Assembly (NCBI GenBank): GCA_021803005.1
Contig: JAJZQT010000001.1
Coordinates: 34,125-68,032 of the forward strand
Direction: 5' to 3'
DNA length: 33,908 bases
Source of the DNA: Actinomycetes bacterium
GTDB taxonomy: Bacteria > Actinomycetota > Thermoleophilia > BMS3ABIN01
Below, piece by piece: positions 7,368 to 16,563 of the stretch. Below the pieces are notes generated by a model that was given only the letters and a program-made list of their open reading frames with translations, was not told the DNA's origin and searched no databases. The position numbers were made by a program, and so were the translations under genes. Position 1 is the first letter of the stretch; each line of letters starts with the position of its first letter.

Positions 7368-8342
7368 ATGACCTCAGAGCCCAGATTACAGCCCCAAAGG
7401 GCCGAAGGCAGATCCAGCGCCGGCCGGCGCCGGACGGCGCCGGCCGGCAAGGCTGCGCGCGACCAGGCGCCCACCAAGCCCAGGCGCCTGTTTGGCTCCC
7501 GGCTCGACAGCCGCCGCACCAAACGCCGGTTGATCATACTGGCGCTCATCTGCGCCAACTTCTTCATTCTCTGGCTGGCGCTAAAAGTTTTTGCCCAGGC
7601 AGATTTCTGGCCGTTGCTCGCGGCGCCCATCCTGGTTTCGGCCTGGTTTTTCTATGAGGCTGGCGCCATCGCCACCATCGCCATCACCGCCCTGCTGCTG
7701 GTCCAGACCTCTTTTGAGAAAAACGGGGCGATCTTCATCGCCATCGGCACCTTTGCCATCCTCGGCGTCCTGCTCGGTTGGGGCCAGCGGCGGCAGCGCC
7801 GGGTCCACCGGCACGTGCTGCGCTCCTCGCTCACCGATTCCCTCACCGGGCTCTACAATTTTGGCTCCTTCATGGAATGCCTGGACCGGGAGATCCGCCG
7901 GGTGGACCGCTACGGGGGCGCCGTCACCCTGGTGATGTTCGACCTTGACCATTTCAAGATGTTCAACGACCGCTTCGGCCACCAGGCCGGGAACGAAGCC
8001 CTGAAAGCCGTGGCCGCGACCCTGAAACAGCAGAAGCGTGAATCGGATGTCGTGGCCAGGTTCGGAGGCGAGGAGTTCGTACTTCTCTTCCCCGGGAAGG
8101 AAACCGCCGGCATCGAAGCCGCCCGGCGCATGCGCAAGGCCATCTCGCAGATCCGTGTCCCCACCGGCGGCGGCGCCACTACCGGGATCACGGTCAGCGC
8201 CGGAGTCGCCTGCTACCCCAATGGCGCCGCGTCCAAGGAAGAGCTGCTGGACAAGGTCGACCAGCTCCTTTACGCTTCCAAGCGAAAGGGCCGCAACCGC
8301 GTCAGCGTCGCCCCGGCCCGCCACCGCCTGGTAGCCTCCTGA
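7368..8342 (+). CDS. Membrane-associated diguanylate cyclase (GGDEF domain)
   Basis: Hydrophobic N-terminal segments, then DSLTGLYNFGSF...FDLDHFKMFNDRFGH...RESDVVARFGGEEF. GGEEF active site with RESD (RxxD I-site) five residues upstream. Confidence 0.92.
   Translation: MTSEPRLQPQRAEGRSSAGRRRTAPAGKAARDQAPTKPRRLFGSRLDSRRTKRRLIILALICANFFILWLALKVFAQADFWPLLAAPILVSAWFFYEAGAIATIAITALLLVQTSFEKNGAIFIAIGTFAILGVLLGWGQRRQRRVHRHVLRSSLTDSLTGLYNFGSFMECLDREIRRVDRYGGAVTLVMFDLDHFKMFNDRFGHQAGNEALKAVAATLKQQKRESDVVARFGGEEFVLLFPGKETAGIEAARRMRKAISQIRVPTGGGATTGITVSAGVACYPNGAASKEELLDKVDQLLYASKRKGRNRVSVAPARHRLVAS
7419..7448. repeat. Perfect 13-bp all-G/C inverted repeat with 4-nt loop
   Basis: gccggccggcgcc-ggac-ggcgccggccggc; the arms are exact reverse complements. 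Confidence 0.9.
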
Positions 8343-8347
8343 AAGGA

Positions 8348-8629
8348 ATGCCCGAGATGCCAGGACAGCCACCACATTTGAACACCGAGAAGATCCGTGT
8401 CAGTATCGAGACCTGCAGCTGCACGATCGTGGGCACGGTGCATACCCCGGCCACCTCCTACCGCAGCCGGCTGTCCGACCTGCTCAACCAGAAGGAAGCA
8501 ACCTTTCTGTCGGTGACCGATGCGGCCGTTTACCGGCTTGACAACATGGAAGAGCCGGCTTATGCCACGCCCTATCTCGCGGTCAACCTAAGCAGCATCG
8601 AGATGGTCCGTCCCCTGGAGGAAGGCTAG
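8348..8629 (+). CDS. Small conserved-looking hypothetical protein (93 aa)
   Basis: Follows the GGDEF ORF by 5 nt. IRVSIETCSCTIVGTVHTPATSYRSRLSDLLNQKEATFLSVTDAAVYRL, globular composition. Confidence 0.7.
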   Translation: MPEMPGQPPHLNTEKIRVSIETCSCTIVGTVHTPATSYRSRLSDLLNQKEATFLSVTDAAVYRLDNMEEPAYATPYLAVNLSSIEMVRPLEEG

Positions 8630-12234: not shown

Positions 12235-12825
12235 TCAGTTGTGCATACCGCCGGAACCACCGCTCGTGGCGTTGGAATTTTCCAGGATTTTGGGGTGGAT
12301 ATAATACTCGGTTACCATGGAGGACATGGTCATCGGGCCGAACATGCTCCAGTCGACATCCTGCGCGGTTACCCGGTTTACAAAAACCTTTGACGCTATT
12401 TCGTCGCTCTTCGCGCCCTGCGTGACACCGTACATGGTCATCGATACGCTGGACACTTCGGGATACTCGAAGAGGGTCGGCATGACCTTCCGGGATAATG
12501 ATGACATGGTCGCCTCGACAGAACCATCTTCACAGGTGGCCGGACGGTCCACTGCAATGCTGATATCCAGGCTGTTTGTATCGCCAGAGAGTATTGCGGA
12601 TCGCACCTGGGCTGTTTCGCCGAGGCGGCGAGCAGCAACTTCCCGCAGACTGTCCTGGGTGAGCGGGGGGGTCACGAAATTATTGTGAACCGTCATGCCG
12701 CCGCCGGTTGAGGCCTTGTCGAATCCACATCCGCAGACCATCAGCGCCAGAGCCAGCACGGCCATGATTCCAACAATCGTTACAATCGCGTGATCGATTA
12801 CATATTTACTGTTTTTGGCGTTCAT
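12235..12825 (-). CDS. Putative lipoprotein, unknown function
   Basis: Hydrophobic N-terminal helix ending in ALALMVCGCGF (lipobox-like), then a soluble domain. Confidence 0.65.
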   Translation of the reverse strand: MNAKNSKYVIDHAIVTIVGIMAVLALALMVCGCGFDKASTGGGMTVHNNFVTPPLTQDSLREVAARRLGETAQVRSAILSGDTNSLDISIAVDRPATCEDGSVEATMSSLSRKVMPTLFEYPEVSSVSMTMYGVTQGAKSDEIASKVFVNRVTAQDVDWSMFGPMTMSSMVTEYYIHPKILENSNATSGGSGGMHN

Positions 12826-12897: not shown

Positions 12898-12915
12898 TAG
12901 CGAATTCCGTGCCAA
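12898..12915 (-). promoter_or_regulatory. Sigma-54-like -24/-12 promoter facing the lipoprotein gene
   Basis: Minus strand TTGGCACGGAATTCGCTA against YTGGCACG-N4-TTGCW: one mismatch, GG/GC spacing preserved, about 75 nt upstream of the ATG at 12825. Confidence 0.6.
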
Positions 12916-13210: not shown

Positions 13211-13228
13211 TTGGCACGGTATTTGCTA
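13211..13228 (+). promoter_or_regulatory. Sigma-54 -24/-12 promoter, full consensus match
   Basis: TTGGCACG-GTAT-TTGCT(A) matches YTGGCACG-N4-TTGCW at every defined position. Confidence 0.75.
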
Positions 13229-13299
13229 CGTAAGGAAAAGAGAAAGCGGTATTTGCGCCCTCAAATCGGTCCGGGTCAAAGCTGCCTTTTTGTTCATCC

Positions 13300-13556
13300 T
13301 TCGGCTCCGGCTGGTCACCGGAGCCAGAAAATTACCGGTGATAATAACCGGTTAGCCCACCCCAGATGATGGCGGCCCAAGTATCGCAGACAAGGGTTCG
13401 GGCTCTCTCAAACCTTGGTGGGGATAGGGGTAAATAGTGGGGATCAACATTGAACTCTGGAGGTTGCTTTGCTTCCAGAGCTGATCCGTTTTCTCTTCCT
13501 TTTTCCACCTTTCGCCGGAGAAGCCGCAAACTGAACTAGGTTTTGTTAGGAGGTGG
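13300..13556 (+). ncRNA. Putative structured 5' leader RNA of the split-Soret cytochrome operon
   Basis: Successive inverted repeats: ggctccgg/ccggagcc (13303-13325), accggt/accggt (13334-13352), caaggGtt/aaccttg (13391-13418), ggatca/tgatcc enclosing ctctgga/tccagag (13441-13487), ccacct/aggtgg (13505-13556). Confidence 0.5.
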
Positions 13557-13627
13557 TACGCCAAGAGGTGAAGACTTAACACGCGTTTAACCCTATTAAT
13601 GTGTGAACGAGTGATGAAGGAGTGAAA

Positions 13628-14554
13628 ATGAAGGACGACCAGATTAATAGCGATTTAGAGGAATGCTCATCGTGTTCCGAGGCTCGCGGCAGCGTGATAT
13701 CGAGGCGTAAGTTCTTAGGCAGGGGCGCACTCGCTGTCGGCGCTGCCGGGGCTACCGTTGCCGCCACCGGGGGATTGGGGTTGCTCACCAACTCCTTCGC
13801 GGGGGCCACTACTCCACCCCCAACCTGCGCGACTGTTCCCGGCACCGTCAAACATCCCCGAGGCACGTGGGGTTATCCCACGGGTGGTCTGGACCCGGCT
13901 GTTTGCGCCGAGCGGGCGTACCACAAGTTCTTCACGCTGTTCTGCTGTGGAGCGGTAATGGATGGCATAATCGGCACGCTGCAGGAAACGCTGGGGTCTC
14001 CCTACACCAACATTGATACCAATATGTTCAAGTTCGGCGGAGCCGGCATCAACGGCTGGGGTACGGTCTGCGGCACGGCTCTGGGCGCCGCGCTGACTAC
14101 CAATATCATCGCCGGCGTTGACGGCACGGTGGACAATGGTAGCGCCATGTCCAATGATCTGATGGCATATTACGCTGCCACGGCGATGCCGGTTTATGTA
14201 CCGGTTTCATCGGAGTACACGACGCGTGGCGGTACCTGCCCCGCTTTTCAGCCTGGTGGGACATTCCCCACGTCGACAGCCGTTTCACCGCTGTGTCACG
14301 TATCGACAAACAAATGGATGAAGGCGGCAAACTCGGCGCCTGTCCACCCGAGCTATACGATCGTCAGCGGCAGCATCGAGAGGAAAGAAAGATGCGCCCG
14401 GTTGTCGGGAACCATGGCTTACAAAACTGTCGAATTGCTCAACGCCTGGAAGGCCGGCACCTATACCTCTGGTGCCTGGGGTGGTCCTGGCGTAGGCAAC
14501 CCCGGCGGATCGCCCGCCCAGAACAACTGCTCTGACTGTCATACACCAGTCTGA
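13628..14554 (+). CDS. Tat-exported split-Soret-cytochrome-c-like protein (C_GCAxxG_C_C-like) with one c-type heme motif
   Basis: SRRKFLGRGALAVGAAGATVAATGG Tat signal; FFTLFCCGAVMDGIIGTL...FGGAGINGWGTVCGTALGAAL; C-terminal NNCSDCHTPV (CxxCH). AAGGAG 5 nt before the ATG. Confidence 0.75.
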   Translation: MKDDQINSDLEECSSCSEARGSVISRRKFLGRGALAVGAAGATVAATGGLGLLTNSFAGATTPPPTCATVPGTVKHPRGTWGYPTGGLDPAVCAERAYHKFFTLFCCGAVMDGIIGTLQETLGSPYTNIDTNMFKFGGAGINGWGTVCGTALGAALTTNIIAGVDGTVDNGSAMSNDLMAYYAATAMPVYVPVSSEYTTRGGTCPAFQPGGTFPTSTAVSPLCHVSTNKWMKAANSAPVHPSYTIVSGSIERKERCARLSGTMAYKTVELLNAWKAGTYTSGAWGGPGVGNPGGSPAQNNCSDCHTPV

Positions 14555-14599
14555 CCATATACCCAGAATAACTTCGCAAACAACCAGGAGGAGAAGGAA

Positions 14600-15061
14600 A
14601 TGAAGTTAATAAAGAGACTGGGTCTGGTGGTGGTCACTGTGGGCCTGATGACCCTGGTGCTGATACAGGGGATAGGCGCCATGGGCAACGCGGCAGTTGG
14701 TGAGTATTCATGTTACTGCACGCAGCCTGTCCTGAGACTGACCCAGGAAAACGTATATTGGGGCAGCTATGCTGATTATACAAACAGAACCCTGTCGATC
14801 GATTACGATGTAAGCAACGACTCCGCCAATTATGCGAACGCTCACAATCTGCAGATACTTGGCACCAGCAACACCGCCGGAGTTTCCTCCATCGACCACG
14901 GACGGAACATCAATATGGTCTCAGCCGGCGAATGCGAGCTGGTTACGGTTAAATACAATGTGCCTCCAGGAGTTGGCTCTTTCAACACCAGGGTATACGC
15001 GACGACCAGGGATCAATGTGGAAATTCCTACGACTACCCGGGTCCGATGCCTTTGTTGTAA
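14600..15061 (+). CDS. Small secreted protein, probable beta-sandwich, unknown function
   Basis: Signal peptide MKLIKRLGLVVVTVGLMTLVLIQGIGAMG, then a beta-rich region with a few Cys. GGAGGAGAAGG ribosome-binding site before the ATG. Confidence 0.7.
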   Translation: MKLIKRLGLVVVTVGLMTLVLIQGIGAMGNAAVGEYSCYCTQPVLRLTQENVYWGSYADYTNRTLSIDYDVSNDSANYANAHNLQILGTSNTAGVSSIDHGRNINMVSAGECELVTVKYNVPPGVGSFNTRVYATTRDQCGNSYDYPGPMPLL

Positions 15062-15113
15062 GGCCGGTATCGCTCGATGGAAAGCCTGCAATGGATCGCG
15101 AGAGGAGGATGCC

Positions 15114-15254
15114 ATGTTCGACAAACAGAACCACTGCCGGGAGCCATATGTGAAGCCCGAGTTGTCAGTGCATGACAATCTAAGGGAGATCACCTTTGAG
15201 TGCCCCCAGTGGCAGTGCAGCGTGACAGTTCCGCCTCCGCCGACGGGAGGTTAA
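15114..15254 (+). CDS. 46-aa putative RiPP precursor peptide
   Basis: MFDKQNHCREPYVKPELSVHDNLREITFECPQWQCSVTVPPPPTGG; AGGAGG 5 nt upstream of the ATG; YxxPxL...LREIT leader-like pattern followed by a CPQWQC segment. Confidence 0.6.
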   Translation: MFDKQNHCREPYVKPELSVHDNLREITFECPQWQCSVTVPPPPTGG

Positions 15255-15480: not shown

Positions 15481-15762
15481 ATGTTCGGCGAACTGCTTTC
15501 ACCAATGCACATGCTCTTCATCCTGATTGTCGTGCTGATAATCTTTGGGCCGAAACGCCTGCCCGAGATCGGGAAATCCCTGGGCAGGGGCATCAAGGAA
15601 TTCAAAAAGGCCACCACTGACATTCAGGACAAGCTCAGTGACGAGGACGCCTCGGCGGCCAAGATTGAAAAGGCCGAAACCGAGAAGGTCGCGGAGCCGA
15701 TGCAGGCGCCTGAGGCCAAGGTCGCTCCAGAGCCCCAGAGTCCCGAAACAAAAACAACCTAG
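15481..15762 (+). CDS. tatA: Sec-independent protein translocase TatA/TatB-like subunit
   Basis: [40 protein letters not shown]. Confidence 0.92.
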
Positions 15763-15792
15763 CCGCCGCCGGCGGCCCGATCCAGCCCGGTT

Positions 15793-16563
15793 GTGTTCGA
15801 CTCTTCCGACGACCGCGTGATGTCCCTCATCGGGCATCTCGAGGAACTCCGCAAACGACTCGTCATCTGCGCATTCGCCCTGGCGATCGGCATGGTCATC
15901 TGCTTCATCTTCAAGGGCTATCTGCTCGACCTCCTGGTTCAGCCTCTGGGCGACCGGAAACTGATCACCCTGACGCCGACCGAATCCTTCATGACCGTCT
16001 TCAAGGTCGCCGCCTACGTGGGCATGATCGTGGTCTCCCCGGTCATCATCTACCAGATCTGGGCGTTCGTGTCGCCCGGTCTCAAGGGCAAGGAAAAAAG
16101 GGTAATCGTCTTTGCCTCTTTCTTCACCAGCATCCTTTTCCTCTGCGGTGTGGCCTTTGCCTGGCTGCTGGTGCTGCCGCGGGCGCTGAATTTTCTGCTT
16201 ACCTACCAGGATGACTTCTTCAACCAGCAGGTCCAGGCGGCGAGGTATTTTTCCTTTGTCGCCCTTTTCCTGCTCGGCTTCGGGCTGATCTTCGAGCTGC
16301 CGGCGCTGCTTCTGACCCTGGTGCGGCTGGGCATCGTCACCCCGAAAAAACTCGCCCAGAACCGCAGGTACGCGGTGCTGGCCGGCTCGATTCTGAGCGC
16401 GGCGCTGACTCCCAGCCAGGATTTCTTTTCCATTCTGGCCATGGCGATTCCCTTTTACGTCCTCTACGAGATCAGCATCCACCTCGGCAAGCTGGTCCAG
16501 AAGCGGAGCCGCGGCAAGGCCGAGGTCATCGACGGGGGTCCGGAGGGCGAGGCGGCAGGATAA
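15793..16563 (+). CDS. tatC: Sec-independent protein translocase TatC (GTG start)
   Basis: SLIGHLEELRKRLVICAFALAIG, FMTVFKVAAYVGMIVVSPVIIYQIWAFVSPGLKGKEKR, LTPSQDFFS. Confidence 0.96.
   Translation: MFDSSDDRVMSLIGHLEELRKRLVICAFALAIGMVICFIFKGYLLDLLVQPLGDRKLITLTPTESFMTVFKVAAYVGMIVVSPVIIYQIWAFVSPGLKGKEKRVIVFASFFTSILFLCGVAFAWLLVLPRALNFLLTYQDDFFNQQVQAARYFSFVALFLLGFGLIFELPALLLTLVRLGIVTPKKLAQNRRYAVLAGSILSAALTPSQDFFSILAMAIPFYVLYEISIHLGKLVQKRSRGKAEVIDGGPEGEAAG

Follow-up and report, generated by a model that had tools for sequence, protein, structure and literature searches.

What joins a Tat-exported cytochrome, a secreted protein and a small leader-bearing peptide in a single operon? The question arises from a stretch of 33,908 nucleotides (hereafter the window) in the genome of an Actinomycetes bacterium of the class Thermoleophilia, where a preliminary description had proposed these three genes as the defining unit of a sigma-54-driven module. 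We followed the components through related genomes and sequence collections.

A cytochrome operon behind a sigma-54 promoter

The three genes lie close together on one strand, as had been described, with 45 nt between the cytochrome gene and the 153-aa gene and 52 nt between the latter and the peptide gene, upstream of which stands GAGAGGAGG. The operon and its surroundings are as follows.

12235-12825, minus strand: divergent lipoprotein-like gene, a neighbour kept in congeners and absent beside the operon in G007, a relative from another genus
12899-12914, minus strand: sigma-54-like site TGGCACGGAATTCGCT, one mismatch, before the divergent lipoprotein-like gene
13212-13227, plus strand: sigma-54 promoter TGGCACGGTATTTGCT, 0 mismatches to TGGCACN5TTGCW
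13268-13323, plus strand: conserved 5' leader element GGTCYGGGT...CTCCGGYTGGYCACCGGAG with an 8-bp hairpin
13628-14554, plus strand: gene for the Tat-exported split-Soret-type cytochrome c (ATG at 13628, stop at 14554, GGAG upstream)
14600-15061, plus strand: gene for the 153-aa secreted protein, with an N-terminal signal-like hydrophobic segment and a C-terminal Ig-like domain, SADY
15114-15254, plus strand: gene for the 46-aa RiPP-like precursor, predicted leader 15114-15197, predicted core 15198-15251 (ECPQWQCSVTVPPPPTGG)
15481-15762, plus strand: tatA-like gene, a downstream neighbour kept in congeners, not in G007
15793-16563, plus strand: tatC-like gene, likewise kept in congeners, not in G007

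The tatA-like and tatC-like genes (15481-16563) are named from sequence features rather than from a library search. Neither the 153-aa protein nor the 46-aa peptide matched any Pfam or NCBIfam entry, and the lipoprotein-like gene gave no informative match in the same two libraries. Elsewhere in the window, a gene for a GGDEF diguanylate cyclase is followed by one for a DUF6812 protein (7368-8626).

Taken alone, the count of sigma-54 patterns is not significant (2 sites at one mismatch or less, against 1.05 expected). Two further facts lift the promoter above chance: four other genomes have a perfect site before the same operon at a comparable distance, and the organism's own genome encodes RpoN (E 1.6e-57); a conserved -24/-12 element and its sigma factor are thus both present. 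The site before the divergent lipoprotein-like gene departs from the pattern at one position and has a counterpart at the same place in three congeners. The proposed leader holds up as well, since its element occurs once per genome in all five operon genomes and in none of 15 others (a control pattern gave 0), and the hairpin shows one compensatory pair change among the five sequences. Rfam yielded no match, either to the window as a whole or, at higher sensitivity, to the operon region, so that the element belongs to no family known to Rfam.

The cytochrome matches the split-Soret cytochrome c of Desulfovibrio desulfuricans (PDB 1H21, E 2.5e-20) over query residues 75-273, and it also matches NF047622 (E 1.5e-30) and PF09719 (E 7e-6). 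It differs from that class in scoring 106.5 bits against NF047622, under the equivalog cut-off of 400 bits, in having a single CxxCH motif, the C-terminal CSDCH, and in being encoded in an actinobacterial operon together with a peptide and a secreted domain protein. Its Tat motif, SRRKFL or SRRKFM, is conserved among orthologues. Both the Tat-exported, split-Soret-like character of the cytochrome and the secreted nature of its partner, as first proposed, are supported.

Synteny had been named as the check on the proposal, and it bears the operon out. Among 99 genomes searched, five close orthologues of the cytochrome were found, the window's own included, at 73-100% identity, and all five, from two genera, have the 153-aa homologue, the peptide and a perfect sigma-54 site upstream; the count covers close orthologues, beyond which come more distant cytochrome homologues at 33-43% identity. 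Four of these genomes, the window's among them, belong to one genus and share the lipoprotein-like gene, tatA and tatC as neighbours. The fifth, G007, has different ones, and the conservation of the operon is thus more than that of the region.

The tail domain and its peptide

The 153-aa protein leads beyond the operon. We call its C-terminal Ig-like domain SADY, after the SYADY motif; it spans 120 residues, of which W21, Y27, L32, G61 and V62 (numbered as in the domain alignment) are conserved. The protein matches the domain profile (E 2.1e-43 in its own genome), and an AlphaFold2 model (pLDDT 92.9) is an all-beta sandwich whose nearest PDB folds by Foldseek are Ig-like appendage domains, at E 2.6e-3 or weaker and with no specific relative among them. 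Domain and peptide are both confined almost entirely to one family of Thermoleophilia. All 19 genomes of that family have 4-12 peptide matches each (six good loci in the organism's own genome) and 11-39 domain matches, while the other 80 genomes of the class yielded two weak peptide matches in total and a single weak domain match fell outside the family. A scan of 84,980 species genomes returned 75 peptide loci, all from uncultured bacterial genomes and mostly labelled Thermoleophilia, Gaiellales or Actinomycetes (for example DeMMO3_11, SURF_19 and BMS3Abin01). IMG/VR and a plasmid collection contained no relative, so the peptide is not evidently phage- or plasmid-borne.

In 59 of 76 fetched peptide loci, a SADY domain ends 32-130 nt upstream of the peptide on the same strand. 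The domain closes its protein at the C-terminus in these paired loci, with a tail of at most 19 aa, and the rest of that protein varies: it may be a rhodanese, an ethylbenzene-dehydrogenase-like heme domain, a multiheme cytochrome, a set of Ig-like repeats or a stretch without any known domain. Thus it is the tail-domain protein with its peptide that recurs, rather than the cytochrome triple of the preliminary description, and elsewhere this pair has numerous other partners and lacks the sigma-54 arrangement. A perfect site at operon distance occurs at the cytochrome loci only, and a few other loci have scattered sites. We therefore reject sigma-54 as the regulator of all peptide loci and regard its control in this arrangement as peculiar to those with the cytochrome. 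One peptide copy (L079) follows an rpoN-like gene at a distance of a few hundred bases.

The 76 loci were selected by the peptide, and the reverse rate is read from the domain search of the organism's own genome, where an intact peptide adjoins 3 of about 18 domain loci; protein tails were read at all but the last five of these. A strict one-to-one pairing is thereby ruled out. A fourth locus (L006, G000:C24) is broken: it has a run of N, a repeated 5' half of the peptide and a domain-protein remnant before it, and is probably an assembly gap. Of the peptide loci left unpaired, 2 are at contig ends and 15 lack the domain. About 11 of the latter are lone copies, convergent with hemC-like and hemA-like genes and often preceded by genes of LOG-like and helicase-like type (L009, L048, L054, L056, L064, L071, L074, L080, L086, L088 and L098). 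Other loci, such as L052, L063, L077 and L102, have domain-peptide pairs in tandem, and between the pairs stands a lipoprotein-like gene, followed by a second HprK-related kinase gene; the C-terminus of the lipoprotein-like product (e.g. GGIEIVVPPSP) is similar to the end of the peptide core. All of the co-occurrence falls inside a single clade and so may amount to one evolutionary event.

Does the pairing mean that the peptide acts on the domain? It could instead be a signal or effector, made alongside surface proteins and bound to none of them, so that the pairing reflects shared expression only. The lone copies beside hemC, the near-invariance of the core across copies and the many domain proteins that have no peptide would all suit a free molecule. 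Shared expression alone, however, does not predict that 59 of 76 copies sit directly behind one domain while its partners vary, and we consider this alternative unlikely.

PEP-CTERM, LPXTG and T9SS tails likewise place one conserved module at the C-terminus of secreted proteins that have nothing else in common. SADY differs from these in having neither a transmembrane anchor nor a basic tail, in being Ig-like and in being paired with a downstream peptide gene. We found no description of such a pairing in the open-licence literature.

A lasso-type leader without a lasso

In the family alignment of the peptide, Y12, P15 and T27 are invariant and L17 nearly so. With T27 placed at -2, these become Tyr(-17), Pro(-14), Leu(-12) and Thr(-2), the exact register of lasso precursors, in which the residues at these four positions are reported to be necessary for recognition by B1 proteins (PMC10368454). 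The leader as a whole reads Y..P.L..H.NL..IT, and lasso leader models match some other members of the family (NF033521, E 0.0011; NF033528, E 0.0048). The predicted core begins at E29 and reads (F)ECxxWxCSVxVPPPP: a tryptophan is flanked by two invariant cysteines (CxxWxC), the serine (Ser36) is invariant too, and the tail is rich in prolines. Its positions 7-9 are Cys-Ser-Val in nearly every copy, without the Asp or Glu that a lasso ring needs. These family-wide alignments uphold the earlier view of a RiPP-like peptide: a precursor with leader and core is encoded and so are processing enzymes, and we infer the link between enzyme and substrate.

As for these enzymes, the organism's genome encodes exactly one PqqD/B1 protein (PF05402, E 6.5e-18) and one B2 cysteine peptidase (PF13471 Transglut_core3, E 3.6e-17), whose genes adjoin each other on contig C75, away from the peptide loci. 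B2 passes the lasso model NF033537 (47.7 against a cut-off of 33 bits); B1, with 59 bits against NF033536, stays below the NCBIfam lasso cut-off of 80. B2 is found in 16 of the 19 family genomes, two of the three exceptions being 69% and 78% complete, and above cut-off in 5 of the 80 other genomes of the class. The order HprK-related kinase, B1, B2 and DUF2079 membrane protein is recognisable in most relatives, where genes were called by simple ORF picking, and the cassette of G007 has an NTP_transf_5 gene as well. Kinases of the HprK type and nucleotidyltransferases are known to tailor lasso peptides (PMC8498205, PMC10368454). In 12 of the fetched stretches, peptides are accompanied by a second HprK-related kinase paralogue, in one case as a contig-end fragment (E 2.6e-6).

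Might the peptide simply be an unmodified small protein, its resemblance to lasso leaders a coincidence and the B1/B2 cassette meant for other substrates? The matches to leader models are weak and the cassette does not adjoin the peptides, as this would have it. Yet the four determinants keep their exact register across the family, each genome has a single B1/B2 pair, and a paralogue of the cassette kinase stands beside the peptides; we judge such a coincidence quite improbable.

The opposite view, of an ordinary lasso peptide whose leader is removed by B1 and B2 and whose macrolactam is closed by an unlinked asparagine-synthetase-like cyclase, draws on the lasso-type leader, B1, B2 and kinase, and on the AsnB-like proteins that do occur in these genomes. 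Against it, none of 20 genomes has a cyclase above the NF033535 cut-off. The AsnB-like proteins, the nearest candidates, score better with asparagine synthase or XrtA amidotransferase models, lie off the B1/B2 contigs in the genomes compared and are also present in families without the peptide, and the core has no acidic residue at positions 7-9. We thus reject a canonical lasso peptide, given no cyclase above cut-off in these 20 genomes and no acceptor acid, and consider the version with an unlinked enzyme very improbable. Three of the AsnB-like proteins (L282, L283 and L289) start with MSGIAG, Ser replacing the glutaminase Cys, and in several genomes two such matches lie close together on one contig.

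The system nonetheless invites comparison with lasso clusters that have split B1/B2 proteins and an HPr-kinase homologue (paeninodin, pseudomycoidin, BsfA type; PMC8498205, PMC10368454). It shares with them the same four leader residues, a PqqD-type B1, a B2 cysteine peptidase, an HprK-type kinase and, in G007, the nucleotidyltransferase. It differs in the absence of a cyclase above cut-off, in a core with CxxWxC and no acceptor acid, in many precursor genes scattered over each genome behind genes for secreted proteins, and in a cassette in which no ABC transporter was recognised; no exporter for the peptide was identified.

A peptide proposed to serve surface proteins

To explain these results we propose a multi-locus system in which a lasso-type-processed, cyclase-free peptide serves SADY-domain surface proteins, the cytochrome operon being one sigma-54-controlled instance of it. 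Judging from sequence, we give this reading a probability of roughly 0.5. That the locus is merely a respiratory cytochrome operon under sigma-54, extended by two accessory genes and of no wider meaning, is scarcely credible: operon, promoter and leader are indeed conserved in five genomes, but domain and peptide stand together at 59 loci, mostly without that cytochrome.

In the system that we propose, the leader of the 46-aa precursor would be bound by the single PqqD/B1 protein and cut off by the B2 cysteine peptidase encoded next to it, releasing a short core. Of the steps envisaged, this one we regard as probable. Linked HprK-type kinases may then phosphorylate the core, perhaps at the invariant serine, which is plausible, if a little short of even odds. 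Once exported, the mature peptide would act outside the membrane. From the pairing of the genes we suggest, tentatively, that it docks on, or is joined to, the Ig-like C-terminal domain of the secreted proteins made with it, which would thereby share a mark for fixation at the surface or for assembly. In the operon, the client would be the 153-aa protein, co-expressed under sigma-54 with the Tat-exported split-Soret-type cytochrome. The picture in full, of a lasso-type-processed CxxWxC peptide delivered to the shared Ig-like domain of otherwise unrelated secreted proteins as a ribosomally made tag or as an element that fixes them at the cell surface, we put forward as a rather doubtful extension.

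It is mainly as secreted natural products that ribosomal peptides of the lasso processing type are known. In this system, numerous precursors that are nearly identical lie scattered over the genome beside secreted proteins with the tail domain, some of which have heme or cytochrome domains. The peptide looks set for lasso-type trimming but is unable to become a lasso, and it may therefore be part of an undescribed way of equipping surface proteins. Where a lasso-type RRE has no co-occurring lasso cyclase, the authors of RRE-Finder allowed for either a false positive or a RiPP class still to be characterised (PMC7470986). Should the peptide act on the domain, surface proteins would be finished or fixed by a so far undescribed means, and some of these cyclase-less RREs would have a role. 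In any case, the system is a testable handle on an uncultured deep-subsurface actinobacterial lineage.
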